Shown here piece by piece: positions 5,332-32,974 of a stretch of DNA of 33,021 bases; position 1 is the stretch's first letter; every line of letters begins with the position of its first letter. Where the stretch lies: positions 1 through 33,021 of the forward strand of contig JABIZD010000017.1 in assembly GCA_018666555.1 (NCBI GenBank), read 5' to 3'. The notes under the pieces are model-generated. The model was given only the letters and a program-made list of their open reading frames with translations, did no database searches and had not been told where the DNA came from. The stretch is from Gammaproteobacteria bacterium. Its GTDB lineage: Bacteria > Pseudomonadota > Gammaproteobacteria > Pseudomonadales > Azotimanducaceae. Position numbers and translations under genes: made by a program.

Positions 5332-5347
5332 TTTATCATTTGATAAA
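5332..5347. promoter_or_regulatory. cluster operator, copy 1
   Basis: TTTATCATTTGATAAA is a perfect inverted repeat with 7-base arms and a 2-base centre. It lies between the divergent permease (start 5238) and CoA-transferase (start 5388) genes, 40 bases before the latter. The motif recurs at every other divergent promoter in the cluster, so this is probably a dimeric regulator site serving both directions. Confidence 0.8.
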
Positions 5348-5387
5348 TTAGCAAATTGCATTAAATCAATAAAGAGGGGTATTCATT

Positions 5388-6572
5388 TTGACGGAACAGG
5401 ATAACTTGCCGTTAAGTGGCGTTAGAGTTATTGAATTCTCGCATATGGTCATGGGGCCAACTGTGGGCGTAATATTGGCTGATCTTGGTGCTGATGTTGT
5501 TAAGGTAGAGCCCATCGATGGCGATAATACGCGCCGGCTGCAAGGTTCGGGGGCGGGGTTTTTCTCAATGTATAATCGTAATAAGCGTAGCATTTGCGTT
5601 GACTTAAAGTCCGATGCTGGAGGCGCTTTGGCAAAGAAGCTGATTAATTCAGCGGATGTGGTGATTGAGAATTTTCGACCCGGTGCAATGGACAAGTTGG
5701 GATACGGATATGATGCCCTCGCTGTTGATAACCCTGGCCTGATTTATTGTTCTGCTCGTGGATTTTTAAGTGGTCCGTACGAGCATCGCGCGGCTCTGGA
5801 TGAAGTCGTGCAGATGATGGGCGGACTTGCTTACATGACTGGTTTACCCGATCGACCGATGCGAGCGGGCGCGTCAGTTGTCGATGTGATGGGTGGTATG
5901 TTTGCCGTGATTGGTATTCTCGCTGCTCTGGAATCGCGTCACAAGACAGGCAAGGGTAAACGGGTTGTGAGCTCGCTGTTTGAAAGTGTTGCTTTCCTAA
6001 TGGGCCAGCATATGGCTCAGGAGGTCGCCCAGAATGCACCGGTTAAACCGATGTCTATTCGGACCTCAGCCTGGGGCATTTATGATGTCTTTGCTACCCA
6101 GGATGATGAAAGTGTGTTCGTTGCGGTAGTCAGTGATACCCAGTGGCGAAAATTCTGTGAATCGTTTGAGTTGGACGATTTCCTGGCTGATAAGTCGCTA
6201 GCTGCCAATGGCGATCGAGTTCAAGCCAGAGACAGAGTGCTTCCCGTTATTCAAAATCTGTTCGCTACTTTTACCAAGTCAGAGCTGATGACGCGCCTTG
6301 ATGAATGTGGCTTGCCGTTTGCTGGAATTGGCAAGCCATCAGACTTGTTTGATGAACCGCATTTGCTGGCATCGGGAGGATTGCTGGATGTCACCCTGCA
6401 AGACGGAACCCAGACCAGACTACCCGGCTTGCCGTTACAGATGGATGGCAAGCGGTTTGGCCTTCGCCACGATCTGCCAAAGCATGGTGAACACACGCAG
6501 GAAATACTCAAGGCTGCTGGATTCGCAGATGAAGAAATTAGCGGGCTGTTCGATGATAAAGTAATTGCCTAG
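5388..6572 (+). CDS. class III (CaiB/BaiF-family) CoA-transferase
   Basis: A 394-residue acyl-CoA transferase. It shows LPLSGVRVIEFSHMVMGPTVG at the N-terminus, ADLGADVVKVEP (31-42), NRNKRSICVDLK (63-74), VIENFRPGAMDKLGYGYD (92-109) and GASVVDVMGGMFAVIGILAAL, in which Asp166 is the expected catalytic nucleophile by alignment to formyl-CoA transferase. The family moves CoA between carboxylic acids through an enzyme-bound aspartyl-CoA thioester. The start is TTG at 5388, after AGAGGGG (5373-5379); no nearby ATG fits the family N-terminus. It diverges from the permease-lyase-LeuCD1 operon and shares its operator, so I infer that it activates the diacid that the HMGL-like enzyme cleaves. The stop codon interlocks with that of leuD2 on the other strand (CTAG at 6569-6572). 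Confidence 0.9.
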   Translation: MTEQDNLPLSGVRVIEFSHMVMGPTVGVILADLGADVVKVEPIDGDNTRRLQGSGAGFFSMYNRNKRSICVDLKSDAGGALAKKLINSADVVIENFRPGAMDKLGYGYDALAVDNPGLIYCSARGFLSGPYEHRAALDEVVQMMGGLAYMTGLPDRPMRAGASVVDVMGGMFAVIGILAALESRHKTGKGKRVVSSLFESVAFLMGQHMAQEVAQNAPVKPMSIRTSAWGIYDVFATQDDESVFVAVVSDTQWRKFCESFELDDFLADKSLAANGDRVQARDRVLPVIQNLFATFTKSELMTRLDECGLPFAGIGKPSDLFDEPHLLASGGLLDVTLQDGTQTRLPGLPLQMDGKRFGLRHDLPKHGEHTQEILKAAGFADEEISGLFDDKVIA

Positions 6573-7213
6573 TCGTTGATCGGCCTGTTTGCATGGGCCC
6601 AGGAACGTTTTACTTGATCAGCCCTAATGAATTCATCGATGTCTGTTTGTAGCTGCAGAGTTAGGTCGATTGGGTCGAGGCCGTTCAAAAGCATTTGCTG
6701 ATATGAGGCCTCTATCCGAAATGAATAACGTTGCTGATTAGGGGTTGTTATCTGACTGTGTTGAAGGTCGATAGAAAGTTGATTTAATTGTGGGTTTGGG
6801 ACTACTTCGGTCGCAATATCCGCTATTTGTTTTTCATCAAGTATGATCGGAAGTACGCCGTTGCGAATGCAGTTGGTGTAAAAAATTGCGCCGAAGCTCG
6901 GCGATACAATTGCGCGGATACCGAAATCCTTGAGTGCCCAGACAGCGAATTCACGCGATGAACCACAGCCCATATTCTGGCCTGTTAACAGAATTGATGC
7001 ATCGGCGTAGGCCGGTTGATTCAGAACAAATTCAGGATCGAGGTTGCCGGCCTTTACTACTCCCTGAAGATAACGCCAGCCAGCAAATAAACTGCCGCCC
7101 AGTCCTTCACGCGAAACACGCTTCATCTCCCGGGAGGGTAGGATTGCATCGGTATCGATATTGACGCGCAGGAGCGGGGCTGCAATGCCTTGGTGGGTTA
7201 GGAACTTTTGCAT
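6569..7213 (-). CDS. aconitase-family small subunit, divergent type (LeuD2)
   Basis: A 214-residue partner of LeuC2. It keeps the core motifs APLLRVNIDTDAILP (12-26) and MGCGSSREFAVWALKDFG, but the substrate-recognition loop reads PSREMKRVSREGLGG instead of the PKQYLKCINKYGYG of LeuD1. That difference points to a different diacid, since this loop sets specificity in isopropylmalate isomerase, homoaconitase and citraconase. The ATG at 7213 matches the family N-terminus and follows the leuC2 stop by two bases, indicating translational coupling. It is the last gene of the hydantoinase-MFS-leuC2-leuD2 operon. The true reaction is unknown; hydration or isomerisation of a maleate- or citraconate-like acid is my best guess. 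Confidence 0.87.
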   Translation of the reverse strand: MQKFLTHQGIAAPLLRVNIDTDAILPSREMKRVSREGLGGSLFAGWRYLQGVVKAGNLDPEFVLNQPAYADASILLTGQNMGCGSSREFAVWALKDFGIRAIVSPSFGAIFYTNCIRNGVLPIILDEKQIADIATEVVPNPQLNQLSIDLQHSQITTPNQQRYSFRIEASYQQMLLNGLDPIDLTLQLQTDIDEFIRADQVKRSWAHANRPIND

Positions 7214-7215
7214 AG

Positions 7216-8634
7216 TCAGTCTTGTATTGCCCGGAAATCAGTGATGTAACCGGTAACAGCGGATGCAGCGACGGTAGCGGGACTGGCAAGATGAGAGCGT
7301 GTTCCAGGTCCTTGTCGGCCTTCAAAGTTTCGATTAGTACTGGTAATGACTCTATCGCCAGAATTAAAGCCCTCACCGCCAGCGTAGAAACACATAGAAC
7401 AACCAGACTCACGCCATTCGAAGCCGGCCTGCCTGAAGATCTGGTCAAGGCCTTCTTTTTCAGCAAGGGCTTTAACCTGTGTTGAGCCCGGCACGCAGAT
7501 TGCCTTTACGCCTGGCGCAATTGAGCGCCCTTTGAGTATATTTGCTGCGATGCGCAGATCGCTGAGCCGACTATTGGTGCACGAACCGATAAAAGCCGCC
7601 TGGATGGGTAAATCAGTAATGGGCATCCCTGGTGACAAGTTCATATAATTTAGTGCACGATTTATTGCGTTTTTCTTGGATGCCAGATCTGTACTGTCAG
7701 GATGAGGCACTACTGCTTCAATTGAAACGGCCTGCTCTGGACTGGTTCCCCAGGTGACCGTTGGGGCTATTTCGGTGCAGTCGATTTCGATTTCGTGATC
7801 GAATTTGGCATCAACATCAGTTTGCAGCGTTGACCAGTACTTCGTCGCCGTCTGCCACGCCTGCCCCTTCGGGGCAAAAGGCTTGTTTTTTAGATAGTTA
7901 ATAATTTTGTCATCGGGAGCGATAATGCCAGTGAATGCAGAAAACTCGACAGCTAGGTTACACAGAGTCTGGCGGGCCTCCACATCTAGTTCTGATATAA
8001 CAGGTCCTGCGAATTCTACTGCGCACCCTGACCCACCGGTAGCTGAGAAGGTGGATATCAGGTGTAGTGCGAGGTCCTTCGCTGTCACGCCGGGACTAAG
8101 CTTCCCCTTGAACTGAACCCGCATCTGTTTAGGTTTAAAAAAGCGCAGGGTCTCCGTTGCTAGCGCGTGTTCGCATTCGCTGGACCCCACGCCAGTAGCC
8201 AGGGCGCCGATGGCACCAAGAGTGCAGGTGTGGCTGTCGGGGCAGATCATGGTGCATCCCGGTAATGCGATAGCCTGTTCGGCAGCCACGACATGCGAGA
8301 TACCTTGCATGGGATCTTCGAGGTCAAACAGCGTAATGCCGTGCTGGTTCGCTAACTGACGGGTTACCTGTATAAATTCCTTTCCGCCCGGGGTCGTAGT
8401 GTTATCGCTGCGACCAGGTTTGGTATCGACAATGTGATCCATAGTACAGAATACGTTTGCAGGATTTTTGGTTGTGCGCCCACTGGATTCGAGGCCGCTT
8501 AATGCCAGGCTACCGGTACGTTCATGCAGGAAGATCCTGTCTATATAGATGAGATAGGAGCCATCTTCGCCACGCTCTACCGTGTGATCATTCCAGATTT
8601 TATCGAATAGAGTCAGACCGGGTGGTTTTGGCAT
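7216..8634 (-). CDS. aconitase-family large subunit, divergent type (LeuC2)
   Basis: A 472-residue [4Fe-4S] hydro-lyase subunit. The cluster cysteines are C352 (IGSCTNSR), C412 and C415 (SGCSMCFYAGG), and CPDSHTCTLGAIGAL (131-145) corresponds to the [11 protein letters not shown] motif of LeuC1. The stretch after the last cysteine reads FYAGGEGFNSGDRVITS instead of the AMNPD...ERCASTS of ordinary LeuC, and the N-terminal IDRIFLHERTG differs from the usual RHLLHEVTS. This is therefore an off-type member, probably annotated as 3-isopropylmalate dehydratase by homology but likely acting on another acid. It lies 34 bases after the MFS gene and 2 bases before leuD2. Regulation is probably through the operator at 11522. 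Confidence 0.88.
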   Translation of the reverse strand: MPKPPGLTLFDKIWNDHTVERGEDGSYLIYIDRIFLHERTGSLALSGLESSGRTTKNPANVFCTMDHIVDTKPGRSDNTTTPGGKEFIQVTRQLANQHGITLFDLEDPMQGISHVVAAEQAIALPGCTMICPDSHTCTLGAIGALATGVGSSECEHALATETLRFFKPKQMRVQFKGKLSPGVTAKDLALHLISTFSATGGSGCAVEFAGPVISELDVEARQTLCNLAVEFSAFTGIIAPDDKIINYLKNKPFAPKGQAWQTATKYWSTLQTDVDAKFDHEIEIDCTEIAPTVTWGTSPEQAVSIEAVVPHPDSTDLASKKNAINRALNYMNLSPGMPITDLPIQAAFIGSCTNSRLSDLRIAANILKGRSIAPGVKAICVPGSTQVKALAEKEGLDQIFRQAGFEWRESGCSMCFYAGGEGFNSGDRVITSTNRNFEGRQGPGTRSHLASPATVAASAVTGYITDFRAIQD

Positions 8635-8668
8635 GGCTGGTTGCTCCAGGGCATTATTTTGCAGTCTA

Positions 8669-9955
8669 TCATTTCAAGCTGTTGTCGGAATGCCGTTGCC
8701 TGATAGCTGGCCCCAACCTGGCAATTCGTGGAATAAAGATCATCACTGCCAATGCTGAAACAATGTGCATACTGCCGACAGCCAGGAACACGGGTTGGTA
8801 AGAAAACGTATCAATAAGGACCCCAACTTGTGACTGGAACAAAGCGCCGCCTAGGCTGCCAGCAGCACCAAAAATACCCCAGATTGTTGCCACTTCCTTG
8901 GCCGGAAACATATCGGCTGGTAACGTAAAAAGGTTGGATGATTTGAACTGGATTGCAAACAAGCCAATACAAATCAAACCGATAAAGGTTGCAGTGGACT
9001 CAGTATTTGCAGCTGGAACGATCGCTAGAACAAGTAAAGCACCAATCCAGATGATGAGTTTTCTGGCTGCGTCCAGAGACATGCCGTTGTCGATAAGTTT
9101 TTTACCGGCCCAACCGCCGGAGAGACTACCAAGGTCTGCGGCAACGAACGGAATCCAAGCAAATAGGCCGATTGCCTTGATATCCATGCCACGCTCATTT
9201 GCTAAATACAGGGGTAACCAGAATATCAAAAAATAGAAAGCACCATCTGCGAAAAACCTGCTGATCATCAGGCCCCAGGTTTCACGGTATTTAAAAAACT
9301 CGAGCCAGGATTTTGTGGGCTGATCAATGGCATCAACTTCTTCGATGATTTGAACTGCTTCCTGAGCAGGCAGGTTAGGATGATCCGCGGGTGAGTAATA
9401 GGCTCTATGCCAGAACCAAAGCCAGACGAAACCGATCAGGCCAGTTATGACGAATGCCCATTGCCAACTAAGCATGACAACCAGAGAGGCAACTATTGGT
9501 GGCGCAAGAATAGATCCCAGGCCAGGGCCAGCAGTGACAATACCAACCGCTAAGGATCTCTCAGTTGCAGGGAACCACTCGGCGATAGCTTTATTCACCG
9601 CCGGAAAATTTGCTGCCTCGCCGATCCCCAGTAACACCCGGAATAGAAAAAATGATCTGAATCCCTGGCCGAAGGCGTGCAATATGCCAGCGATACTCCA
9701 GAGTGCAACTGCAAAAGTAAGGGCGCGTTTGGTGCCGAGGGCATCAATGAGTTTACCGCCAAACAGCTGACCAAACGCATACGCAAACAGGAATGCTGCG
9801 GATAGGTTTCCATAGTCTGTATTGCTCAGCTCAAACTCATCCATGATGACGGGTGCAACGATGCTGAAGGTGAGCCGATCAATATAATTAATGGTAGTAA
9901 TCAGCAGTAGTAGAATGCTGATTTTCCATCGTATTGGTATGGTTCTTATATTCAC
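8669..9955 (-). CDS. MFS transporter, ACS (organic anion:cation symporter) type
   Basis: A 428-residue, 12-helix carrier. The start INYIDRLTFSIVAPVIMDEFELSNTDYGNLSAAF, the RVLLGIGEAANFPAVNKAIAEWFP segment near residues 110-130 and the RSLAVGIVTAGPGLGSILAPP helix are typical of the anion:cation symporter family (hexuronate, glucarate, tartrate and 4-hydroxyphenylacetate carriers). Substrates in this family are usually carboxylates, which would fit import of an acid. The start codon is GTG at 9955 with only a weak upstream AAAGG, so translation may depend partly on the preceding gene, whose stop is 42 bases upstream. It sits between the hydantoinase-like gene and leuC2 in one operon. Confidence 0.88.
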   Translation of the reverse strand: MNIRTIPIRWKISILLLLITTINYIDRLTFSIVAPVIMDEFELSNTDYGNLSAAFLFAYAFGQLFGGKLIDALGTKRALTFAVALWSIAGILHAFGQGFRSFFLFRVLLGIGEAANFPAVNKAIAEWFPATERSLAVGIVTAGPGLGSILAPPIVASLVVMLSWQWAFVITGLIGFVWLWFWHRAYYSPADHPNLPAQEAVQIIEEVDAIDQPTKSWLEFFKYRETWGLMISRFFADGAFYFLIFWLPLYLANERGMDIKAIGLFAWIPFVAADLGSLSGGWAGKKLIDNGMSLDAARKLIIWIGALLVLAIVPAANTESTATFIGLICIGLFAIQFKSSNLFTLPADMFPAKEVATIWGIFGAAGSLGGALFQSQVGVLIDTFSYQPVFLAVGSMHIVSALAVMIFIPRIARLGPAIRQRHSDNSLK

Positions 9956-9997
9956 ACGTTAGACATTGGGGTGACCTTTCTAAGACCGTTCTACGGA

Positions 9998-11482
9998 TTA
10001 GGGTCGTTTGGTAGGGCGTGCAATGTACTGGCCTGTTGGTTCCCCAACTATTCTATCATTAGAAAATACTGTTTTTCCGCGCAATACGGTTCGCTTCACT
10101 TTGCCGCGAAGTTCCATTCCTTCGAACGGCGTATAACCCTGGTGAGATTCAGATTCTTCAGCCTTGACGGTGAAAACTTCATCTGGGTCGAGTAACACAA
10201 TATCGGCATCATAACCTACGGCAACGTCGCCTTTATTGAGTAATCCGTATCGCTGAGCAGGATTCCAGCATACGAGCTCGGCCATCTTGTTATAGCTCAT
10301 ACCACGCTGAGAGCCTTCGCTGACAAGTCCTGAAAGCAGGTATTCAGTGCCGCCAAAACCGGATTTTGAAACCCAGATATTATCGCCATCCCCGGGATCC
10401 TGATTATCTGTTTTAAGCTCTTCAGAGCAACAGGCATGGTCACTGACAACCCAGTCCAGGTTGCCATCCAAGAGTGCCTGCCACAGATATTCGACATCCT
10501 CTCGAGATCGAATAGGTGGATTGACCTTGGCGTGGCAGGCCGCGGGACTATCGTAATCGAGTAGCAGGTGGCCAATAGTTACTTCGCGTTTAAAATTGAT
10601 GTGCGGGAAAACATTCTGCATGATCATCGCTGCTTCCACCGCTTTTTTCGAGCTCAGGTGGAGAAGATTGATATTAAGGCAATCCGTTTCATTGGCAAGA
10701 TACGAGGCAATCCAGATTGCCAGACCCTCAGAATGGGGTGGTCGAGCTGCACTATAGGCACGCAGCCCGGTTAAGGAATCGTCCTGCTGCACAATTTTAG
10801 TGTAGGCGTTGAGAATATCGGCAAGTTCACAATGCAGGCTTACACTGATTTGGTCTGCCATTTCTGGGTATTTTTTTATCAGTTTGGCCGCAGAACGCAT
10901 AATAAATTCAAAATGAGCGATATCGTAGCTGTCGTCCTCGTCCGCCATCAAGAATTCTCTTTGGGCTGCCGGATCAGTTTTACCGTGTAACCCGTAGCCA
11001 CCGTAAAACATGAATATCTTGAAGGAGCAGACACCGTGGTCTGTTAACAGCGATTCCATCTCATCTATGTGTGAAGAGGCGATTGGCGCGAGATGGTAAG
11101 CATAGTCGACTGTATAGTTGCCCTCAGAGGTATCAAGCACCTCTGGATAAAAATCTGCGTACGGGCCTCCCTTGTTGAGGTAGTATTGGCCAGTACGGAA
11201 ATAGGTAACGGCGGTGGTAACCCCTCCCATCGCTGCGGCTTTACTTTCTGTAACAGCATCTTCTGCCAGTGGCGAATAGATGCCGACATGCATATGGGTA
11301 TCGACCAGGCCTGGGAAAGCTAGCAGCTTATTGCCTTCGATAATTTCGGTTGCTGCCGATATTGGGATATCGGCCTCTATTAGAGCGAACTTACCGTCTT
11401 TTATTGCGATGTCGACCAGATCAACTGTATCCGTATTCGGCCGAGCGAGGCGAACGTTCTTGATAATAGAATCAAACTGCAT
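9998..11482 (-). CDS. dihydropyrimidinase/hydantoinase-like cyclic amidohydrolase
   Basis: A 494-residue amidohydrolase-superfamily enzyme of the hydantoinase/dihydropyrimidinase/allantoinase branch. GLVDTHMHVG (58-67) supplies metal ligands His63 and His65; CSFKIFMFY (152-160) contains Lys155, the expected carboxylated bridging lysine; SLHCEL and LHLSS give the next histidines; WVVSDHACC gives the catalytic aspartate. All ligands for a binuclear zinc site are therefore present. The family opens cyclic amides (hydantoin, dihydrouracil, allantoin or lactam-like rings). The C-terminal GYTPFEGMELRGKVKRTVLRGK is also typical. It is the first gene of the operon, 39 bases from the operator at 11522. 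No carbamoylase follows, so the ring substrate may not be a classical hydantoin. Confidence 0.88.
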   Translation of the reverse strand: MQFDSIIKNVRLARPNTDTVDLVDIAIKDGKFALIEADIPISAATEIIEGNKLLAFPGLVDTHMHVGIYSPLAEDAVTESKAAAMGGVTTAVTYFRTGQYYLNKGGPYADFYPEVLDTSEGNYTVDYAYHLAPIASSHIDEMESLLTDHGVCSFKIFMFYGGYGLHGKTDPAAQREFLMADEDDSYDIAHFEFIMRSAAKLIKKYPEMADQISVSLHCELADILNAYTKIVQQDDSLTGLRAYSAARPPHSEGLAIWIASYLANETDCLNINLLHLSSKKAVEAAMIMQNVFPHINFKREVTIGHLLLDYDSPAACHAKVNPPIRSREDVEYLWQALLDGNLDWVVSDHACCSEELKTDNQDPGDGDNIWVSKSGFGGTEYLLSGLVSEGSQRGMSYNKMAELVCWNPAQRYGLLNKGDVAVGYDADIVLLDPDEVFTVKAEESESHQGYTPFEGMELRGKVKRTVLRGKTVFSNDRIVGEPTGQYIARPTKRP

Positions 11483-11521
11483 GATGATTTCCTCTTCCTT
11501 CTGAAGATAATAAGTTCTTTA

Positions 11522-11537
11522 TTTATCAGATGATAAA
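11522..11537. promoter_or_regulatory. cluster operator, copy 2
   Basis: TTTATCAGATGATAAA has perfect 7-base arms around GA. It lies centrally in the 96-base divergent gap between the hydantoinase-like gene (start 11482) and the TIGR02444 gene (start 11579), about 40 bases from each start, where it could control both. Confidence 0.8.
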
Positions 11538-11578
11538 CTAAATTCCCTGCCAATTCGAGCAGGCTAACGAGCTAAAAT

Positions 11579-12121
11579 ATGATCGTAACAGAGCGTTTTT
11601 GGGATTTTTCCAATCGGATCTATCAGCGTGAAGCCGTGCAACAGGCCTGCCTCGAACTGCAGAACCAGCATAATCTGGATGTTAATATGCTTCTATTCTG
11701 TATTTGGTCAGGCATTGTTCATGGCGAGTTGGCAGATGCACTCTATGGCAAGGCGCTGCGAGTATCATCGAATTGGCGTAGCCGTTTAGTTCATCCTCTG
11801 CGGCAAGCTCGTTCCTGGATGAAGACTGGATTGGCATCAGCTGGATTCAAGGATGATCCATCTTATCTTGAGCTTCGCGAGCAGATTAAGGTCATTGAAC
11901 TCAAAGCAGAAAGACTGCAGCAACTAGAGCTTGAGAGGTTAGTTGAGAGCCAGCCTGCTGCGGACTTTGATCAGACTCTGGCTATTGTTCAAAACTTGAA
12001 ACGATATTGCCAAAGTCAGACACTCGATTTAGACCCGCCAGTTGTAATGTTAATGGCGGTGCTTTTAGAGGCATCGGTGCCGGATGAGAATCTTGAATCA
12101 GCGCTACTTGCAATGTCTTAG
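11579..12121 (+). CDS. TIGR02444/DUF2390 family protein
   Basis: A 180-residue cytoplasmic protein without signal peptide or membrane segment. The N-terminal pattern FWDFSNRIYQREAVQQACLELQNQHNLDVNMLLFCIWSG (residues 7-45) is the hallmark of the TIGR02444 family, whose members are widespread in gammaproteobacteria and functionally uncharacterised. The middle (about residues 100-128) is charged and helical, compatible with a short coiled coil. It stands between catabolic operons and its start lies 41 bases after an operator copy, so it may be co-regulated or may simply be a chromosomal neighbour. It ends two bases from the end of the UbiX-type gene on the opposite strand. Family assignment is from memory of the N-terminal motif; no function is claimed. 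Confidence 0.78.
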   Translation: MIVTERFWDFSNRIYQREAVQQACLELQNQHNLDVNMLLFCIWSGIVHGELADALYGKALRVSSNWRSRLVHPLRQARSWMKTGLASAGFKDDPSYLELREQIKVIELKAERLQQLELERLVESQPAADFDQTLAIVQNLKRYCQSQTLDLDPPVVMLMAVLLEASVPDENLESALLAMS

Positions 12122-12123
12122 GG

Positions 12124-12696
12124 TTACTTCTCGGTTGACTTGCCCTGCCAGCGTTTTACCTTGCCGCTATCCAGGCCAAATAGATCCAGTAAGCGGCCAG
12201 CTGTGTGATTAACAATATCTTCTACGCTTTGTGGGCGATTATAAAAAGCCGGCATAGGCGGTGCGATGGTGACGCCCATCTGGGAAGCTTCGTAAAGTAA
12301 ACGACAGTGCCCAGCATGAAGTGGTGTTTCGCGAGGTACGACAACTAGTCTCCTGCCTTCCTTGAGGACCACATCGGCTGCACGAACTAAAAGATTGTCT
12401 GCATACGAATTTACAATTGCTGAAAGCGACTTCATGGAGCAGGGGACAACGATCATGCCGTCTGTTGTAAACGAACCGCTGGCGATGCTGGCGCCCACAT
12501 CTGTAACCCGATGTACCTGGTCCGCTAGAGCTTCAACATCCTTGATAGTCCAGTCGGTCTCAATGGGGATATTCATTTTACCTGTGGCGGAAATTACAAG
12601 ATGTGTTTCCACTTCTGCCTGCTGCTGCAATAATTCAAGCAGCTTGATGCCATAAATTACGCCACTTGCACCTGATATACCGATAATAAGCCGCAT
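12124..12696 (-). CDS. ubiX: UbiX/Pad1-family flavin prenyltransferase
   Basis: A 190-residue flavoprotein that makes prenylated FMN from FMN and dimethylallyl phosphate, the cofactor needed by UbiD-type decarboxylases. GISGASGVIYG (6-16), PCSMKSLSAIV (85-95), PRETPLH (121-127) and APPMPAFYNRP are the family motifs. I place the start at the ATG at 12696 (MRLIIGISG), preceded by AAGGA (complement 12704-12708); an in-frame ATG at 12840 would add 48 unrelated residues and run into the preceding gene. It is the last gene of the two-flavoprotein operon, with a 103-base gap. The UbiD-family gene lies about 15 kb away under another copy of the same operator, so this is probably a dedicated accessory UbiX for that decarboxylase, not the ubiquinone one. 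Confidence 0.9.
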   Translation of the reverse strand: MRLIIGISGASGVIYGIKLLELLQQQAEVETHLVISATGKMNIPIETDWTIKDVEALADQVHRVTDVGASIASGSFTTDGMIVVPCSMKSLSAIVNSYADNLLVRAADVVLKEGRRLVVVPRETPLHAGHCRLLYEASQMGVTIAPPMPAFYNRPQSVEDIVNHTAGRLLDLFGLDSGKVKRWQGKSTEK

Positions 12697-12799
12697 AGGT
12701 CGATCCTTAATCCTGAATACTAATCCAAAGGTAAAAATGAGTACCGGAACGGCAGTGTAGCACAAGCATTTTCTCGATAAGGCAAGGCCATAAAGACGT

Positions 12800-15765: not shown

Positions 15766-15848
15766 GGTGATCATGCCTTTTTCGTGGACGACATCAAACC
15801 GGGTGAGTTCCAGCTTTTAGCTGGTACTGACAATGGCAGGATTATTAG

Positions 15849-15864
15849 TTTATCATTTGATAAA
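15849..15864. promoter_or_regulatory. cluster operator, copy 3 (longest palindrome)
   Basis: The TTTATCATTTGATAAA core here extends to 13-base perfect arms (15843-15855 and 15858-15870) around a TT centre, the most symmetrical copy in the window. It lies between the divergent flavoprotein operon (start 15765) and the secreted bicupin gene (start 15962). Confidence 0.82.
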
Positions 15865-15869
15865 CTAAT

Positions 15870-21866: not shown

Positions 21867-21894
21867 GAATATAAGCACTTACTGGAGCTAGAAA

Positions 21895-25148: not shown

Positions 25149-25160
25149 AGGAGCAGGATC

Positions 25161-25679: not shown

Positions 25680-26242
25680 ATAGTATTTCGCCAGATATCA
25701 GGACGCTTACCGTCAAGAAAGCAACGCCAGAAGCACTCGCAGATTATGGTCAGGTGCTCGGTTACAACGCCGATATAGATCCAATGCCAATCGACTTTTA
25801 TGGCGGTACCGTAAAAGTCCGTCGTGTTGTTGATTTTGTTTCTGATGAGCAGACCGAGCTGCCGCTGGTGACAGTCCAGAGGCGGCCCTACGAGGTGCGC
25901 TGGATGGAGCGGCATTTCAAGCACACGCAAACCTTTATACCGCTGGCTGGTGCGCCTTTTGTGGTTGTTATGGCGCCGCCGAACGAAGCCGAAGTAGCAG
26001 ATCTCGATCGCGTAGAAGCTTTCCTGTTTGATGGTTCTGCCGGCTTCACCATGAAACTGGGTACCTGGCATGAATTCCCATTTGCAGTTCAGGATGACAC
26101 TAATCTGATTGTGGTACTGCGCAAGGAAGCAACCGACGGTTTGATCAGAGACAATGTGATTCAGGATGAGGCGCAAAGCCCTGATCTGGATAAAAAAGAT
26201 CTGCTTGCGCGATCTAATGTCGTGTTCCAGTTTGAGGTCTAA
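25676..26242 (+). CDS. ureidoglycolate lyase (AllA)-family protein
   Basis: A 188-residue member of the cupin-fold AllA family. MERHFKHTQTFIPLAGAPFVVVMAPP (77-102), LDRVEAFLFDGSAGFTMKLGTWHEFPF and DTNLIVVLRKE match the family pattern, including the GTWH segment. AllA splits ureidoglycolate into glyoxylate and urea at the end of allantoin breakdown. The remaining allantoin genes are absent, so the protein may cleave a related ureido- or hydroxy-acid. The ATG at 25676 overlaps the small-subunit stop; an ATG at 25592 in the same frame lies inside that gene and gives non-family residues. Tight coupling to the molybdenum hydroxylase suggests it works on a product of that enzyme or of the hydantoinase-like enzyme. 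Confidence 0.82.
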   Translation: MNSISPDIRTLTVKKATPEALADYGQVLGYNADIDPMPIDFYGGTVKVRRVVDFVSDEQTELPLVTVQRRPYEVRWMERHFKHTQTFIPLAGAPFVVVMAPPNEAEVADLDRVEAFLFDGSAGFTMKLGTWHEFPFAVQDDTNLIVVLRKEATDGLIRDNVIQDEAQSPDLDKKDLLARSNVVFQFEV

Positions 26243-26291
26243 ATAAACTAATTGATTAGAACCATAGGCTGTGGCCTACGGGAGGAAGCAT

Positions 26292-27176
26292 ATGGACAAA
26301 AAGTTGGATAGGCGGTCCTTGCTGATCGGTGCTGGTGCGGCGACCGTTGCCACGGCCGCCGCCGCATTTAATCCTGAACCAGTGCTTGCAGCCGGAAAAC
26401 GAAGGGTTCCACTGGATTTTTCAGACGACAAAGATAACGTCCGTGCCTACGCTAAATTGGTGGGTACGGTAGAGGATGGTCAGGTCCATTACTGGTATCG
26501 CGGCACCATCTTCGGTGTTACCCCTGATGCCACCATGGCCATGATCGGATTCACCGGTTTACTCAAGATGATTTGGAAAAACCTCGGCAATGGAAGTTTC
26601 CATTATCGTAATTATGACCTGGGGTACTTTACGGAACCCAATAGTGATGTACGAATCGAAGAATTTACCAACCCTTTTACCGGCAAGGTTAATAGACCTA
26701 TTGATATAAAAGGCGGACCATTTGATGTAGTGATCGCGCCACGACAGTATGAGTGGACGCGATCGGGTGATGATATCTGGTTTGCAGAGGCAAAGCATTT
26801 CAGGTTCCAGAATAAACTCGCCCCGGAAGACTGGCCTTTGGCATCAACCGGGGAGACGTTAAACATGCTTTATCTGGACGGATTTCATGGCAAAGTATCG
26901 GACTTGGAAGACCCCGATATCGTCAGCGCTCCTGCTGATTTGGGTATTCACCACGTCAATCCCTGGTACCCGTTTTTTTTAATGGGTCAGCAACCGGGGG
27001 TTAACTACTGGCACGGTCGGGGTAAGAAGATAGTCGATGAGTCAGATGTTTCTCCGGAAGTACTTGCCTATGCTAATGAGAAAATACCCGATTTCATAAA
27101 TTCCGGTCCTCCGTGGGTATCAAGAACCGACAGCTACCTCGATTATAAGACGCATCGGAAACCCGTTCTTGATTAG
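26292..27176 (+). CDS. Tat-exported DUF1838 protein
   Basis: A 294-residue protein with a twin-arginine leader (MDKKLDRRSLLIGAGAATVA, probable cut near VLA-AG at about residue 34). The mature part, with strands such as GQVHYWYRGTIFGVTP, FHYRNYDLGYFTEPNSD and DIKGGPFDVVIAPRQYEW, looks like the DUF1838 family, a beta-rich fold with no assigned reaction. Several W/Y/H clusters (HHVNPWYPFFLMGQQPG, NYWHGRG) could line a ligand pocket. The ATG at 26292 is chosen over the one at 26271 because GGAGGAA (26281-26287) is correctly spaced before it. It lies 49 bases after the AllA-like gene and 41 before the hydrolase. The family name is from memory; function unknown. Confidence 0.78.
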   Translation: MDKKLDRRSLLIGAGAATVATAAAAFNPEPVLAAGKRRVPLDFSDDKDNVRAYAKLVGTVEDGQVHYWYRGTIFGVTPDATMAMIGFTGLLKMIWKNLGNGSFHYRNYDLGYFTEPNSDVRIEEFTNPFTGKVNRPIDIKGGPFDVVIAPRQYEWTRSGDDIWFAEAKHFRFQNKLAPEDWPLASTGETLNMLYLDGFHGKVSDLEDPDIVSAPADLGIHHVNPWYPFFLMGQQPGVNYWHGRGKKIVDESDVSPEVLAYANEKIPDFINSGPPWVSRTDSYLDYKTHRKPVLD

Positions 27177-27217
27177 CCATCAAAACCCACAGTTTGAATC
27201 AGTTGAAAGAGGGAGCC

Positions 27218-28006
27218 ATGCATAAAGCTTATATAGATACAAAAGTTGGCCAGCTTCATTATCGTATCGGTGGAGAGGGGAAACCTTTACTGCTGATTCA
27301 CCAGGACCCCCAGTCCTCATTGCAGTATGCGCATACTTTTTCGAAATTTATTGATGCCGGCCTGCAGGTGATAGCACCTGATGTTCCCGGATATGGCATG
27401 TCAGATGCGCCTGCGAATCCGCTTAGTATTTTAGAATATGCGACGGTATTTAAGGAGTTTCTTGATCATCTGGGAATTGATAAGGCAGTCGTTGTCGGTC
27501 ATCACACCGGCGCATCGATGGCTTGTCAACTGGCATACCAGTTTCCGGAGAGCGTGAGTCGGTTAGTGTTGCACGGCCTACCCTGGTATACCCAGGCAGA
27601 GCGCGAAGAAAGACTGGCGCGACCACACATGGATTTTTCTGCACAAATGGATGGCTCTCATTTAGCCAGTCTCTGGGATTTGATCGGTAAGATGTCTAGA
27701 GGTGTATCGAAGCTGGAGTCATCGCATATGGCGGCTTTTCATACCCTCTGGGCTGAGGATAAGCACTGGTATGCTCACCACGCGGCGTTTAGTTACGATA
27801 TTACCACAGCGCTGCAATCCATCCAGGTACCGACGCTGAATGTTACCAATAGCGGGGATATTCTCCATTTTGTAGCTGGACGCATTGCTGAATTAAGACC
27901 TGATTTTGAATTCGTCGAGCTTGACGGTGGAACTTCATACATCATCCGTGACGAGCCAGACCTTTGGGTTGAAGCTATCCTGGATTTTGTTACTGCGGCG
28001 AATTAA
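27218..28006 (+). CDS. alpha/beta-hydrolase-fold protein with non-canonical catalytic residues
   Basis: A 262-residue alpha/beta-hydrolase fold protein without signal peptide. The fold is clear from LLLIHQDPQSS (24-34), VIAPDVPGYGMSDAP (51-65) and VVVGHHTGASMACQLAYQFP (91-110). At the nucleophile elbow the GxSxG motif reads G94-H-H96-T-G98, putting histidine where serine should be. Near the C-terminus, DGGTSYIIRDEPDLW has Thr239 where the catalytic histidine normally follows the glycines. The oxyanion-hole HG is HQ. I recall a subgroup of hydrolase-like proteins with HQxP and HTG motifs, so this is probably a lineage trait and not decay. The start at 27218 follows AGAGGGA. It closes the long operon and is convergent with the UbiD-type gene. 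It may catalyse a serine-independent reaction or be non-catalytic. Confidence 0.85.
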   Translation: MHKAYIDTKVGQLHYRIGGEGKPLLLIHQDPQSSLQYAHTFSKFIDAGLQVIAPDVPGYGMSDAPANPLSILEYATVFKEFLDHLGIDKAVVVGHHTGASMACQLAYQFPESVSRLVLHGLPWYTQAEREERLARPHMDFSAQMDGSHLASLWDLIGKMSRGVSKLESSHMAAFHTLWAEDKHWYAHHAAFSYDITTALQSIQVPTLNVTNSGDILHFVAGRIAELRPDFEFVELDGGTSYIIRDEPDLWVEAILDFVTAAN

Positions 28007-28019: not shown

Positions 28020-29525
28020 CTAGGACTTCCAGCCATTGATGATATCGCCCCATTTGTCGTTAATGTGTGACAAGATGTCGGGCTTCTCAGCAAGCAGGCA
28101 CTCACGGTTCATTTTCGCGTAAACTTCCGGTCCGCCTTCATCCGGTCGCTTTCGGGTGGCATCAATGACGACCCTGCTGCCAGATCCGCGTGTGGGTGAA
28201 CTTGGATCGCCGCCCATAGCGCCGGCTTTCTCGATAATCTCGGTTGCTTGGTACGGTTGCCAGCGAGCGCCTACCGTATGCATTACCTCAGTGAAATTGT
28301 GAACATCCACATCTTCATCGACGACAATGGCAATTTTGGCGATTTTCAATGAAGTGGCAATCTCCCGGCCGATTGTCATGGCTTCATCCGCATTTGTTTT
28401 TCTGATACGAATGAAGCAGTACCCTGGGGTTTGTAGCGGAAAGTGAACGCTGAGAACATTCGGGAACCGTTGCCGGTAGTTTAAATTTGAAGTCATCTCA
28501 AGTGGTGCAGTGAGAAAGCCGCGGTGTATACCAGTGAAATTGTTGATGAAGATAGGTTTTTTGCGGTGGGTTACGGCAGTAATGTTCATATAGAAGTTTT
28601 CTGGTTTGTGTTCTCCTATATAGCCGTACATTTCTCCGAATGGACCTTCAGGTTCGAAATCAAACGGAATTTCGCCTTCTATCACCATTTCTACATTCGC
28701 GGGAACCCGCAGTTCGCTGGTTTCACATTTCACCACTTCGACAGGTCGGCCGAGAAAACCACCGGCAACTTTCAGTTCATCCTGGCCAAGCCGGGTCGTC
28801 TTTGAACTGCTCATGGCAAATACGATGGGATCGGCGCCGATCACGACAGCAGCTCTCGCAAATGGTTCTCCGCGGTCTTTCATATCCATTAGAAAGGTCC
28901 AGCCGTGTTGATTGCGCTCTGGGTTGACGCTTATCTTCCTGGGGCCTTTGACCTGGCACCGATAGGTGCCCACATTACGACCATATTTTGGGTCTTCTAG
29001 TATGACATTGCCGGTATTGATATAGGCGCCACCGTCCGCTGGGTTAGTTTTGATGAAAGGAAACTGAAGGATATCGATGGCATCGTCGAGCAGGGTTACT
29101 TCTTTGCAGGGTGCGTCCTGCCTTGAAACCTCGACGGGTTCGACGGCAGGCCACTGGCCGTCTTTGTCTACCCGTGTTTCCAGTTGCTGGAGAGTTGATT
29201 TGTAAAGTTGGCGTTGGTCATATCCATGGGCTTCGACTCCAAATGCCAGGGGCTCATATTGCCAACGGCCCCATGGGTTGCCGATCACCGGGCCATCCAT
29301 CCAGCGGCCACCAGATTTTATTTTATTAAAGGAAACGATCGGCGCCTCGCTCCAACCGACTTTGTCGATCAACTGATACATGAACCCGGTTGCTTCATAG
29401 GCATCCTGGTCAACTTTATCAACGTGAAGGACTTGGCCGAGCTTATCGACAGCGTCTATATATTCGCGTAGTGAGCCAAAGGGACCTGAAACGCGATTAG
29501 GATTGTTTTGGTCTGTATTTGCCAC
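28020..29525 (-). CDS. UbiD-family prenyl-FMN-dependent decarboxylase
   Basis: A 501-residue decarboxylase of unsaturated or aromatic acids that requires prenylated FMN. GAYINTGNVI (166-175) and YRCQV (188-192), including the conserved arginine, form part of the cofactor and metal site; VPANVEMVIEGEI (274-286) and EGPFGEMYGY (293-302) hold the catalytic glutamates. Length is typical. Substrates in the family include 4-hydroxybenzoates, cinnamates, furan- and pyrrole-carboxylates; divergent members are common in catabolic clusters. It lies 15 bases after a small membrane protein gene in a two-gene leftward operon beginning near operator copy 5. The matching UbiX gene is at 12124-12696. Decarboxylation direction and substrate are unknown. 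Confidence 0.9.
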   Translation of the reverse strand: MANTDQNNPNRVSGPFGSLREYIDAVDKLGQVLHVDKVDQDAYEATGFMYQLIDKVGWSEAPIVSFNKIKSGGRWMDGPVIGNPWGRWQYEPLAFGVEAHGYDQRQLYKSTLQQLETRVDKDGQWPAVEPVEVSRQDAPCKEVTLLDDAIDILQFPFIKTNPADGGAYINTGNVILEDPKYGRNVGTYRCQVKGPRKISVNPERNQHGWTFLMDMKDRGEPFARAAVVIGADPIVFAMSSSKTTRLGQDELKVAGGFLGRPVEVVKCETSELRVPANVEMVIEGEIPFDFEPEGPFGEMYGYIGEHKPENFYMNITAVTHRKKPIFINNFTGIHRGFLTAPLEMTSNLNYRQRFPNVLSVHFPLQTPGYCFIRIRKTNADEAMTIGREIATSLKIAKIAIVVDEDVDVHNFTEVMHTVGARWQPYQATEIIEKAGAMGGDPSSPTRGSGSRVVIDATRKRPDEGGPEVYAKMNRECLLAEKPDILSHINDKWGDIINGWKS

Positions 29526-29540
29526 CTTCGACTCCGAATG

Positions 29541-30212
29541 TTAAAACGGTTTAACCTCTCCCAGAAAGGCCATTAATACCACCAGTAGCCAGATAAGAAA
29601 AGCCGCTCGATTAGCCATGCTGTTGATTTCAACCAGCAGTTTTTCACCTTGAGCTCGACTATCTCCATCAGCCAGGACCAGGTCGAACGCTCCTTGCCAG
29701 CGCATCGCGATTCTGCGTATCCACACGCCATTTAACAAGATGGCGGCAAACAGGATAATCTTCATCGCAAGCCATTTGTGGGCGATAAATTCGCCGGTCA
29801 CCAGGCAGTATGTGCCAAATGCTGCCATGGCTCCAATGACCATATAACGTATTCCCATATCAAGGCGTTGCAGACGTGCGCCCTTTGCTGTGCCTTTATT
29901 AAAGTAAACCAGCCAGACCAGGCCCAGCCAGGCCAAGTCGGCAACCCATAGCAGTAATAGCCAGATACCTGTAATGGGTGAACCATATAGCTGGGCGAGG
30001 GTGAAGCCGACGGCGAGTAGCAGTACCAGCGAGCTTCTGGCAGTCATATCAACGATGAACCTAAGATCGCGAACGCGAATCCGTTCTTCCAGACTAAGCT
30101 CTGAACGGGTGATGTATTTGCCAATGTAGTGCACTGCAACATCGCCACCGATGGCATATACAAACAGGAATACATGTATAAAGGCCATCAGAAGGTGAAA
30201 GTTAATCGTCAA
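29541..30212 (-). CDS. small integral membrane protein, possibly CopD/DUF2269-like
   Basis: A 223-residue protein with about five or six predicted membrane helices, starting directly with a hydrophobic segment (MTINFHLLMAFIHVFLFVYAIGGDVAVHYIG) that contains His6 and His13. A later HKWLAMKIILFAAILLNGVW resembles the helix of CopD-like or DUF2269-like small membrane proteins that ligate heme or metal with paired histidines. I cannot name the family with certainty. It precedes the UbiD-type gene by 15 bases and is 53 bases from operator copy 5, so it is co-regulated. Possible roles are electron transfer to the quinone pool from a periplasmic oxidase or a transport accessory; neither is shown by sequence. 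Confidence 0.75.
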   Translation of the reverse strand: MTINFHLLMAFIHVFLFVYAIGGDVAVHYIGKYITRSELSLEERIRVRDLRFIVDMTARSSLVLLLAVGFTLAQLYGSPITGIWLLLLWVADLAWLGLVWLVYFNKGTAKGARLQRLDMGIRYMVIGAMAAFGTYCLVTGEFIAHKWLAMKIILFAAILLNGVWIRRIAMRWQGAFDLVLADGDSRAQGEKLLVEINSMANRAAFLIWLLVVLMAFLGEVKPF

Positions 30213-30265
30213 TTGAGTGATCCTATTGCGTGGCTTAGCCTTAATCAGGTGTATTGAAATTCTTA

Positions 30266-30281
30266 TTTATCAAATGATAAA
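30266..30281. promoter_or_regulatory. cluster operator, copy 5
   Basis: TTTATCAAATGATAAA has perfect 7-base arms around AA. It sits between the divergent membrane-protein/UbiD operon (start 30212) and the alcohol dehydrogenase/BBE2 pair (start 30364). Confidence 0.8.
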
Positions 30282-30363
30282 CTAAAAACCTGACAGGTAA
30301 AAGGGTACCGCTGAACACGCAGCAATGATGAATGTACCTGCTGTCATATTAACCTGACTATTA

Positions 30364-31395
30364 ATGAGCGTAAAACTGATGAAAGCGATGCTGTTGCAAG
30401 CCCCTTCGGACCTGGTTCAGACAACCGTTGATGACCTCACGGTGGGTGCGGGAGAGGTATTGGTTGAGGTGACTCATTCTGGAGTTTGTGGCACTGACTT
30501 GAAGATTTTCCGCGGTGACATTCCTGTGCAATATCCCAGAGTGATGGGTCATGAAATGATTGGCAAGGTAGTCACCGCCCCTACTGCGACGGGTCTCGCG
30601 ATAGGCTCTCGGGTTGTTATCAATCCGGTTTTGAGTTGTGGCCAGTGTTTCTATTGTCAGGCTGGTCAGGAGAATCTGTGCCCGAGCGGGTTTCTTCTCG
30701 GAAGAGACAAAAATGGCGGTTTTGCAGATCATATCTGCGTTCCAGCCGAGGCAGTATTTCCCCTGCCCAGTCAGATCAGTAATGATTGCGCGCCACTGAT
30801 TCAAGTCATGACGACTTGCCATCACGCCCAGAACCTCTCATCCATTAATCCAGGAGAGACCGTTGTCGTTGTTGGTCTCGGGGTTAGTGGGCTGTTGCAT
30901 GTGCAGTTGGCGAAAGCCAGAGGCGCGTCACGAGTGATTGGCATAACAGGAAGTCCAGTAAGACGTTCCATGGCAGAAAAATTCGGCGCGGATGACACCT
31001 TTTCTCCTGATGAGGATGTTACTCAAGAAATTCTTAACCTGACCGGTGGGCGAGGAGCGGATCTGGTCATCGATTGTGTGGGGTCGATGAATACGCTTCG
31101 GCAGGCAATCGAATTGGCCCGTCCAGGCGGTCGTCTGCTTCTATTTGGTATCTATACAGATGAAATTGCCACGCTGCCATTTTATCAGCTGTATTTTAAG
31201 GAGCTCATCCTTACTAACGCTCGAGCGGCAAAGGCAGAGGATTTCCCAGCGTGTATACAGCTGGTGGTGGATGGCACCATTGATCTTGATTCGATGATCA
31301 GTCATGTTTTGCCGCTGGTCGAGCTTGAGCAAGCGATTCGGATGCTTGATGAGCGTGATGAAGCCCGTATGAAAGTCATATTGGACCATACCTAA
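30364..31395 (+). CDS. zinc-dependent medium-chain alcohol dehydrogenase
   Basis: A 343-residue MDR-family NAD(P)-dependent dehydrogenase. SGVCGTDLKIFRG (39-51) gives the catalytic-zinc Cys42 and Asp45, and MGHEMIG (61-67) gives His63 and Glu64. SCGQCFYCQAGQENLC holds the structural-zinc cysteines 92, 95, 98 and 106. VVVVGLGVSGLLHVQLAKARGAS is the Rossmann turn. It resembles sorbitol, threonine or related polyol/alcohol dehydrogenases. The start could be the ATG at 30364 or the one at 30379 (MKAMLLQAP); neither has a strong Shine-Dalgarno site. It lies 16 bases before the second BBE oxidase and 82 bases after operator copy 5. Together these two genes suggest successive alcohol/aldehyde or lactol oxidations. 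Confidence 0.87.
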   Translation: MSVKLMKAMLLQAPSDLVQTTVDDLTVGAGEVLVEVTHSGVCGTDLKIFRGDIPVQYPRVMGHEMIGKVVTAPTATGLAIGSRVVINPVLSCGQCFYCQAGQENLCPSGFLLGRDKNGGFADHICVPAEAVFPLPSQISNDCAPLIQVMTTCHHAQNLSSINPGETVVVVGLGVSGLLHVQLAKARGASRVIGITGSPVRRSMAEKFGADDTFSPDEDVTQEILNLTGGRGADLVIDCVGSMNTLRQAIELARPGGRLLLFGIYTDEIATLPFYQLYFKELILTNARAAKAEDFPACIQLVVDGTIDLDSMISHVLPLVELEQAIRMLDERDEARMKVILDHT

Positions 31396-31410
31396 TATTG
31401 GGGTTTTAAG

Positions 31411-32916
31411 ATGAAAAGAAGAAATTTCCTATATGCAGGGCTTTGTGCTGCAGCGATCGCCCCTTATCCAATTTGGCGACATTACCGCGGTGACCGCAAT
31501 ACATTGGTGAGCATTAATGCTGTTTCTAATTTAGGTGGAGAGGTATCACTGGATGCCAGCATTCTTGCCGAACTCAGTAAGAGTATCGACGGTAACCTGC
31601 TGTTTTCTGACTCTGAAGGCTACGAACAGGCAAGGCAGGTTCGCAATCGTATGGTCGATAAATATCCTGCTCTGGTGGTGCAATGTACGGGTAGTGCGGA
31701 TGTCAGCAAGGTAATTAACTTTGTAGATCACTACCAGTTGTTGACAGCAGTAAAATGTGGTGGTCATAACATAGCCGGGAACGGTACCTGTGATGGTGGC
31801 ATTCTCATTGACTTATCGCCGATTCAGGGTGTGCAGGTTAACCCGAAACTTAGAACCGCTCAGGTCGCTGGGGGTTCATTGCTGGCAGCTTTGGATGAAC
31901 AGAGCCAGGCGCATGGTTTGGTGACCACTTCCGGAACCGTGTCTCACACCGGAGTTGGTGGCTTAACCCTGGGTGGAGGGTTTGGTCGTTTGGCGCGTCG
32001 TTTTGGACTCACATCCGATAATGTGCTTGGGGTTGACATAGTAACGGCGGATGGCCGTCTTAAGCGGGCTAGCGCAGAAGAAAATACCGACTTATATTGG
32101 GCAGTTCGTGGTGGTGGCGGTAATTTTGGTGTAGTGACTTCGTTTGATTTCCAGCTTCATGCCCTACCACAACAAGTTGTCGGTGGTGAGATTTATTACC
32201 CCTATGACCAGGCCAGAGAAGTGATCAATTTTTATGCAGACTACTGTCAGGATATGCCAGATGAAATGTATGCGGACCTGGTGATATTCGCCCCACCTTT
32301 TGGCTTACCGGATGCACTTTACATAAATGTCTGTTACTCGGGTCCCTTGGACAAGGCTGAGAAGGTTTTAGCACCACTAAGGCGCGTCGTTAAACCAATT
32401 AAAGATGAAATAAAATTGGTCGACTATGTCGAGTTGCAGAAAAGCAGCGATGACACTGATCCAAGAGGTACGGGTCAGCACTTGAAAAGTGGATTTACAA
32501 AAGGTATCAGTCCAGCGCTTGTAGATGCGCTGGTTGACAACCTGGAATCAGATCTGTTCCGCGGCAGTATGGCTTTCTTCCAGCAAGCCGGTGGTGCAGT
32601 TTCTCGAGTTGAAACTTCGGCTACAGCCTTCCCGCACCGTTATGCAAGCCACAATCTAACCATCGGTGCCGTGTGGCCACATGGTGTTGATCCTGAGCCC
32701 CATTCAGCCTGGGCTGATGCCTATTGGAATAAAGTGAAGGGTTTTACAGACGGCTTTTATACCAATGATGCCTACGGCATTGATGCGGCGGTGGCAGAAT
32801 CTAATTACTTGACCAACCATGATCGTCTGGTGGAGGTGAAGACGAAATACGACCCTGCCAATTTATTTCGCGTCAATACCAACATCAGACCAGCGTCACA
32901 AAAACAACCCAGTTAG
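31411..32916 (+). CDS. Tat-type FAD-linked oxidase of the BBE family (BBE2)
   Basis: A 501-residue paralogue of BBE1. MKRRNFLYAGLCAAAIAP is a twin-arginine leader, although no clean AxA site follows and the next segment is basic (WRHYRGDR), so it could stay membrane-tethered. VKCGGHNIAGNG (115-126) carries His119 for covalent FAD attachment, with Cys116 replacing the usual arginine or glycine of the RGGGH motif seen in BBE1. SHTGVGGLTLGGGFG and the C-terminal YDPANLFRVNTNIRP complete the fold. At the position of BBE1 Cys169 it has threonine (GLVTTSGTV), so only a single covalent FAD bond is expected. It is co-transcribed with the alcohol dehydrogenase. Divergence from BBE1 suggests a different substrate or step. 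Confidence 0.9.
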   Translation: MKRRNFLYAGLCAAAIAPYPIWRHYRGDRNTLVSINAVSNLGGEVSLDASILAELSKSIDGNLLFSDSEGYEQARQVRNRMVDKYPALVVQCTGSADVSKVINFVDHYQLLTAVKCGGHNIAGNGTCDGGILIDLSPIQGVQVNPKLRTAQVAGGSLLAALDEQSQAHGLVTTSGTVSHTGVGGLTLGGGFGRLARRFGLTSDNVLGVDIVTADGRLKRASAEENTDLYWAVRGGGGNFGVVTSFDFQLHALPQQVVGGEIYYPYDQAREVINFYADYCQDMPDEMYADLVIFAPPFGLPDALYINVCYSGPLDKAEKVLAPLRRVVKPIKDEIKLVDYVELQKSSDDTDPRGTGQHLKSGFTKGISPALVDALVDNLESDLFRGSMAFFQQAGGAVSRVETSATAFPHRYASHNLTIGAVWPHGVDPEPHSAWADAYWNKVKGFTDGFYTNDAYGIDAAVAESNYLTNHDRLVEVKTKYDPANLFRVNTNIRPASQKQPS

Positions 32917-32958
32917 TACTTTAAATGCAAATTAGTTGCTCACTCGTTTGACATTTAA

Positions 32959-32974
32959 CTTATCAATTGATAAA
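32959..32974. promoter_or_regulatory. cluster operator, copy 6 (near window end)
   Basis: CTTATCAATTGATAAA contains the perfect 14-base palindrome TTATCAATTGATAA (32960-32973). It lies 42 bases after the end of BBE2 in otherwise empty sequence, so it probably serves a further gene starting beyond 33021. Confidence 0.65.

Follow-up and report, generated by a model that had tools for sequence, protein, structure and literature searches.

The 33,021-base stretch of gammaproteobacterial DNA analysed here (the window, positions 1–33,021 of contig JABIZD010000017.1, hereafter C148) carries a catabolic gene island whose promoters share a 22-bp palindrome. This palindrome is very probably the operator of a TetR-family repressor whose gene is the first of the minus-strand transcription unit C148:45741-51357, under which the island would form one regulon. 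The observed basis for this is the distribution of the sites, their conservation, the linkage of the TetR gene to them across species, and the agreement between the type of recognition helix and the type of half-site. The single-regulon reading is well supported; that every operon answers to the same regulator is predicted from the sites.

The 16-mer TTTATCA-NN-TGATAAA was present with perfect arms at window positions 5332, 11522, 15849 and 30266, and with one mismatch at 18332 and 32959, the last retaining a perfect 14-bp palindrome; these six places are exactly those given in the initial annotation. The reversed motif, shuffled sequence and the expectation by base composition were used as controls. 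At up to three mismatches the window showed 8 matches against a shuffled mean of 2.0, and 8 was reached in 0 of 100 shuffles. All six sites lie in non-coding DNA, which amounts to 1,355 of the 33,021 bases with the set of open reading frames (ORFs) used; the two further matches, at 26417 and 29365 (three mismatches), are inside genes and scored about 9 bits with a weight matrix. The seven C148 operators, the six of the window and one beyond it, scored 24.4–27.7 bits, and the next place on the 98,947-base contig 15.7 bits. Since every gap of more than 90 bp between ORFs holds an operator, with the sole exception of the convergent gap 634-847, an operator stands at the start of each of the ten transcription units drawn from 847 to 32916. 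All five divergent gene pairs have one, as had been claimed; the tie to divergent promoters applies to these five sites and not to that at 32959, which serves a same-direction promoter.

The genome scanned comprised 4,173,620 bases in 217 contigs. By composition, about 0.00014 perfect copies of the 16-mer would be expected in the window and about 0.017 in the genome. The scan gave five, every one of them on C148 (four inside the window, the fifth at C148:51421), and 8 places at up to one mismatch, the reversed control giving 0 in both cases; the three one-mismatch copies are those at 18332 and 32959 and one at C168:13192. Equal frequency of the motif at unrelated promoters or in coding DNA, the outcome that had been named as adverse to a single regulon, was not observed; 7 of the 8 places fall within 46 kb. 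At two to three mismatches the 16-mer is largely background (264 places vs 170 for the reversed control).

When the seven C148 sites and ten orthologous sites were aligned, conservation was seen to span 22 bp, TWR-TTTATCA-NN-TGATAAA-YWA, instead of the 16 bp first proposed. The three flanking bases on each side played no part in the selection of the sites, T at −2 and its partner A being invariant in seven of the seven own sites; at operator 3 the palindrome extends to 28 bp (15843-15870). The 22-mer occurred in the genome at 5 places without mismatch, 3 with one, 0 with two and 3 with three (control 2), and 7 of the 8 places at up to one mismatch are inside the island, which measures about 46 kb between its outermost operators. 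Operator-to-start-codon distances range from 25 to 174 bp. Promoter-like boxes, which are weak consensus matches, overlap the operator or lie directly next to it at several sites, and the scan of the TetR promoter gave no such box. An exact 22-mer scan of viral contigs matched 7 stretches.

The eighth operator, on contig C168, looks real in this genome and is probably a species-specific extra, since the nearest P450 relatives in the related genomes G160 and G158 (75–76% identity) lack the site, their best matches having 7 and 5 mismatches. Genes for a TRAP transporter and a PhyH-like protein lie near it. The genome is P450-rich: with the C168 P450 as query, 16 matches reach E 1e-40 or better.

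The most likely reader of the operator is the 214-residue TetR-family protein P0001 encoded at C148:50713-51357, about 18 kb beyond the window, whose own promoter contains a perfect site. A regulator gene just outside the window or elsewhere, bearing the same site, had been anticipated by the initial annotation, which favoured a winged-helix protein of the MarR or GntR/FCD type and had TetR on its search list. TetR_N (PF00440, E 2.7e-13, 49.9 bits vs a cut-off of 24) was the only Pfam family found in P0001, which does not fit a winged-helix type. P0001 stayed below the NCBIfam cut-off in all 15 families listed. By sequence, its best relatives of solved structure belong to the HapR/LuxR type of the TetR family (E 9e-11), and the model of a 71% identical orthologue shows the TetR fold, an all-helical two-domain fold of about 200 residues. 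In its transcription unit the gene is followed by genes for two hydroxyisobutyrate-dehydrogenase-like proteins, a Rid-family protein and an S15-type hydrolase.

The operator and the TetR gene were then compared over a family sample of 206 genomes, including this genome, G158 and G160. A P0001 homologue was detected in these three only, and in 0 of 14 other genomes of the genus. Perfect 16-mers numbered 5, 3 and 5 in this genome, G158 and G160, respectively, and two in total in the other 203 genomes (G016 and G164, both within unrelated ORFs), giving a Fisher p of 7e-6 for the association of TetR gene and perfect site. At up to two mismatches the 16-mer is largely background in the relatives as well (22 places vs 14 for the control in G158, 19 vs 9 in G160). 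By contig DNA identity, G160 corresponds to Saanich Inlet SI073_bin94 and G158 to SI034_bin39. Both carry the orthologous island, with most genes 62–95% identical. In six orthologous promoters compared, 21–22 of the 22 operator columns were identical vs 82–131 of 214 flanking positions. The perfect palindrome upstream of the TetR gene start is kept in both relatives; in G158 this promoter appears at two contig ends (C204 and C312), perhaps a single locus split in the assembly.

Homologues of P0001 with 32–50% identity occur in 59 plasmid records, from Rhizobium, Agrobacterium, Bosea, Ancylobacter, Loktanella and other genera. In the genome samples they were found in 12 of 398 for the phylum and 2 of 369 for the class, this genome being counted in both. 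The 300 bases upstream were compared for 35 homologues, namely 22 of the 59 plasmid records, 2 metagenome-assembled loci and 11 loci of the class and phylum samples. Among the 21 with a Q-P recognition helix, 17 had a TTATCR-NN-YGATAA site, 1 a site of the other type and 3 neither; all 17 positives belong to the 19 homologues with the helix Q-P-L-L-Y. Among the 14 with other helices, the TTATCR type was found in 0, TGACCR-NN-YGGTCA in 9 and neither in 5. After clustering at 70% identity the counts (TTATCR type, other, neither) were 9, 1, 3 for Q-P and 0, 6, 4 for the other helices (p = 9e-4). With H in place of Q52, the half-site is TGGTCA instead of TGATAA in 8 of 9 cases, as would be expected from a change in the base that residue 52 reads; this is a correlation among related proteins and not a proof. 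In eight of the 22 plasmid loci, picked as annotated, with a Q-P helix and with a site already near the TetR gene, 16 core sites (0 or 1 mismatch) were found, all intergenic, with 0 in 101,504 coding bases and 0 for the reversed control. Eight of the 16 stand at promoters other than that of the TetR gene, and only these are independent of the choice of the loci, which were picked for their TetR-near site. These intergenic sites indicate that the relatives, too, spread one operator over several promoters of a cluster.

The proposed pair of protein and operator resembles TetR and tetO. According to PMC7102968, the side chains of TetR Gln38 and Arg28 hydrogen-bond bases +2 and +3, Tyr42 touches the thymine at +4, and specificity is set by Gln38, Pro39 and Thr40. 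With an offset of 14 residues inferred from the aligned range of the sequence match, T41, R42, Q52, P53, Y56 and K62 of P0001 fall at TetR positions 27, 28, 38, 39, 42 and 48, described there as DNA-contacting or functionally important (PMC7102968). The half-site TATCA/TGATA is common to the island operator and to tetO, given in PMC9736018 as TCTATCATTGATAGG. The island operator differs in its spacer of 2 bp vs 1 in tetO and in its flanks TWR/YWA; P0001 would target a local catabolic island, and TetR an efflux gene. The TetR(tet) model NF010319 gave 32.2 bits for P0001 vs a cut-off of 265. The consensus of RutR, TTGACCANNTGGTCAA, has the same 7-2-7 layout as the island operator, with the half-site GACCA vs TATCA and other target genes. 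RutR of Escherichia coli, a TetR-family regulator of pyrimidine utilisation, is described in PMC10891134 as acting at a palindrome of about 16 bp between the divergent rutAG and rutR and as being released by a pathway compound, a likeness in family, palindrome length and divergent promoter region. Scores with the curated RutR models were far below their cut-offs (TIGR03613, 24 bits vs 368; NF011584, 20.1 vs 230), as was that with the LuxR/HapR model NF040929 (35 bits vs 350), though LuxR/HapR was the best NCBIfam and PDB sequence match.

Uncharacterised TetR/AcrR regulators of alpha- and betaproteobacterial plasmids (for example R. johnstonii pRL8, Agrobacterium pA, Ancylobacter pA) share 34–50% protein identity with P0001, and those with a Q-P helix carry the same operator core upstream of their own gene and frequently also at adjacent promoters. 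Their neighbour genes differ, the only shared enzymes being molybdenum-hydroxylase subunits in part of the loci: the Fe-S subunit recurs in 8 of 24 homologue loci, the large subunit in 5 and the FAD subunit in 4. Other contig matches in the 24 loci were LacI-like, TRAP-transporter and one ligase. The operator follows the TetR gene and not the genes around it.

A dimer of the TetR-family protein is expected to have a recognition helix (Q52-P53-L54-L55-Y56) in each of the two TGATA half-sites, in the manner of TetR on tetO. By occupying the seven promoters of the island, its own included, the repressor would block transcription; binding of a pathway compound would make it leave the DNA, and the island of about 46 kb would be expressed together. 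The presence of the same operator at every promoter of the window, probably with one TetR-type reader, is the reason to expect such a joint switch. From the observations we infer that the protein binds these sites, that it represses, that a ligand releases it and that the enzymes share one substrate.

Several results weigh against this reading. Of the 21 Q-P homologues, four are without a TTATCR site: L051, L080 and L083 have no site, and in L084, whose helix is QPLLF, it is of the other type. Among the 17 positives, L059, L062, L071, L078 and L085 are weak, their best site being matched by about 9–16% of upstream shuffles. The two site classes were drawn up after some sites had been seen, and the p-values for the homologues are optimistic since these share ancestry. 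In G160, one of the five perfect 16-mers (C367) lies inside an unrelated ORF outside the island, and two one-mismatch 16-mers also lie outside it. No promoter orthologous to that of operator 4 was found in G158 or G160, nor an orthologue of the gene at 18522, whose product has only a 40–41% relative there. As noted, the boxes overlapping many operators match a promoter consensus only weakly.

A chance or repeat-derived origin of the palindromes (mobile-element ends, sites like repetitive extragenic palindromes, nucleoid-protein sites), with no specific regulator, is extremely unlikely. AT-rich palindromes are common between genes, and perfect 16-mers occur singly in two genomes without the TetR gene; against this stand the five perfect copies in one 46-kb stretch vs the 0.017 expected in the genome, the base-by-base conservation of the operator where its flanks diverge, and its linkage to TetR in distant lineages. 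It is also improbable, though less so, that the palindrome is bound by the GntR/UTRA protein P0002, encoded within the operon behind operator 6, with the TetR gene merely one of its targets. This gene sits in the island, its product is 71% identical in G160 and has both GntR and UTRA domains, and a regulator of the GntR class had been guessed initially. Relatives of P0002 were found in 0 of the 24 TetR-homologue loci (E 1e-15), although the operator core stands upstream of the TetR homologues in other classes; the operator thus occurs independently of the GntR protein, and the guess as to class is not borne out. The half-site type tracks the TetR recognition helix, and the GntR gene is without a promoter-sized gap of its own, with about 40 bp to the preceding gene.

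Rather unlikely, yet the most serious of the alternatives, is that the TetR protein binds the sites and activates some promoters, or shares control with nearby GntR, LacI- and IclR-type regulators, so that the island would not be one simple regulon. In addition to the GntR gene, the contig carries LacI-like (52614) and IclR-like (58933) genes, both named from sequence only, and the spread of operator-to-start distances would suit such an arrangement. Nothing in the analysis points to activation, and a near-identical single operator per promoter, together with the overlap, albeit weak, with promoter-like boxes at several sites, fits plain repression by the TetR-family protein.

Table 1. Operators, transcription units and regulator genes. 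Positions without a contig prefix refer to the window.
Feature	Position	Strand	Remarks
Operator 1	5329..5350		perfect 22 bp; between 3868-5238(-) and 5388(+); kept in G160 C96
Operator 2	11519..11540		perfect 22 bp; between 9998-11482(-) and 11579(+); G160 C381 with one change
Operator 3	15846..15867		perfect 22 bp; between 14197-15774(-) and 15890(+); kept in G160 C278
Operator 4	18329..18350		one mismatch; between 16929-18260(-) and 18522(+)
Operator 5	30263..30284		perfect 22 bp; between 29541-30212(-) and 30364(+); kept in G160 C444 and G158 C328
Operator 6	32956..32977		one mismatch; upstream of + operon from ~33024 running past the window; kept in G160 C444 and G158 C568
Operator beyond the window	C148:51421		perfect 16-mer; 63 bp upstream of TetR-family gene start
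Eighth operator	C168:13189-13210		one mismatch in 22; between TonB-dependent receptor and P450 gene
Operon: LeuD-like, LeuC-like, HMG-CoA-lyase-like, NCS1 permease	847..5238	-	first gene start 93 bp from operator 1
CaiB/BaiF-type (class III) CoA-transferase	5388..6572	+	40 bp from operator 1
Operon: second LeuD/LeuC-like pair, MFS transporter, allantoinase/hydantoinase-like amidohydrolase	6569..11482	-	39 bp from operator 2
DUF2390/TIGR02444 protein	11579..12121	+	behind operator 2
Operon: UbiX-type flavin prenyltransferase, two flavocytochrome-c/fumarate-reductase-like flavoproteins	12124..15774	-	74 bp from operator 3
Cupin-like protein	15890..16921	+	weak Pfam matches, below cut-off
MFS-type transporter	16929..18260	-	named from sequence and transporter relatives; 71 bp from operator 4
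Operon: berberine-bridge-type flavoprotein, metallo-beta-lactamase-fold, three molybdenum-hydroxylase subunits, ureidoglycolate-lyase-like, DUF1838, alpha/beta-hydrolase-like	18522..28006	+	174 bp from operator 4
Operon: UbiD-family decarboxylase, membrane protein without Pfam match	28020..30212	-	53 bp from operator 5
Operon: zinc-type alcohol dehydrogenase-like, second berberine-bridge-like flavoprotein	30364..32916	+	82 bp from operator 5
GntR/UTRA protein P0002	C148:41801-42574		in operon behind operator 6; GntR and UTRA domains
Transcription unit led by TetR gene	C148:45741-51357	-	
TetR-family gene (P0001, 214 residues)	C148:50713-51357	-	~18 kb beyond the window; perfect operator 63 bp before start

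The enzymes of the island were assigned by domain and structure searches. Two LeuC/LeuD-type hydratase pairs (847-2914 and 6569-8634) stand beside genes for HMG-CoA-lyase-like and class III coenzyme A (CoA)-transferase proteins, and a role of these pairs in leucine metabolism seems unlikely. The UbiX-type (12124-12840) and UbiD-type (28020-29525) partners are in separate operons, each behind an operator. The second berberine-bridge-like assignment (31411-32916) was made from sequence and a 40% relation to the 18522 protein; both flavoproteins (18522-20003 and 31411-32916) start with MKRR and a hydrophobic stretch, by eye a possible Tat-type export signal. The 11579 protein is 43% identical in G160, the adjoining amidohydrolase 87%, and the DUF2390 gene may be a bystander behind operator 2. 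By eye, the longest ORFs at 12124-12840, 15890-16921, 24183-25148 and 25592-26242 probably begin too far upstream, internal ATGs being likelier starts.

The domain and structure searches also returned an N-carbamoylsarcosine-amidohydrolase-like enzyme in the island, and HyuA/HyuB-type names for C148:37832-41760 come from a reading of the sequence alone. Synteny with G160 continues past the last operator (C148:53935-62851 and C444:1-16384, 70–89% identical) with genes for a CoA-transferase (781 residues), an AMP-ligase-like, an amidohydrolase-like and an acyl-CoA-dehydrogenase-like protein and a regulator; no operator was found on this part.

The enzymes of the island suggest degradation of a nitrogen-containing ring via hydroxylation, ring opening, hydration and CoA-dependent cleavage, and it is plausible that they belong to one common catabolic system. 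Taken jointly, these data might describe a widespread, undescribed TetR subfamily that runs whole catabolic islands with one operator per promoter and a readable code, in which Q-P-L-L-Y would go with tetO-like TTATCA/TGATAA half-sites at 2-bp spacing and H for Q with RutR-like TGACCA/TGGTCA. The island itself would then encode a new pathway for the catabolism of a nitrogen heterocycle or a compound related to one, made up of two pairs of LeuCD-type hydratases, HMG-CoA-lyase-like enzymes, class III CoA-transferases, a UbiD/UbiX pair, a molybdenum hydroxylase and hydantoinase-type enzymes. We consider the chances for and against this wider proposal to be evenly balanced; no description of this TetR subfamily or of its operator was found in the open-licence literature searched.

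In an uncultured marine gammaproteobacterial lineage, about 46 kb of unassigned enzymes would thereby become a single regulon that is open to test and whose regulator gene is named. The helix-to-half-site rule, for a TetR subfamily of alpha-, beta- and gammaproteobacteria, would make the regulons of the relatives predictable from sequence alone, and the compound that releases the repressor would point to the substrate of the island.

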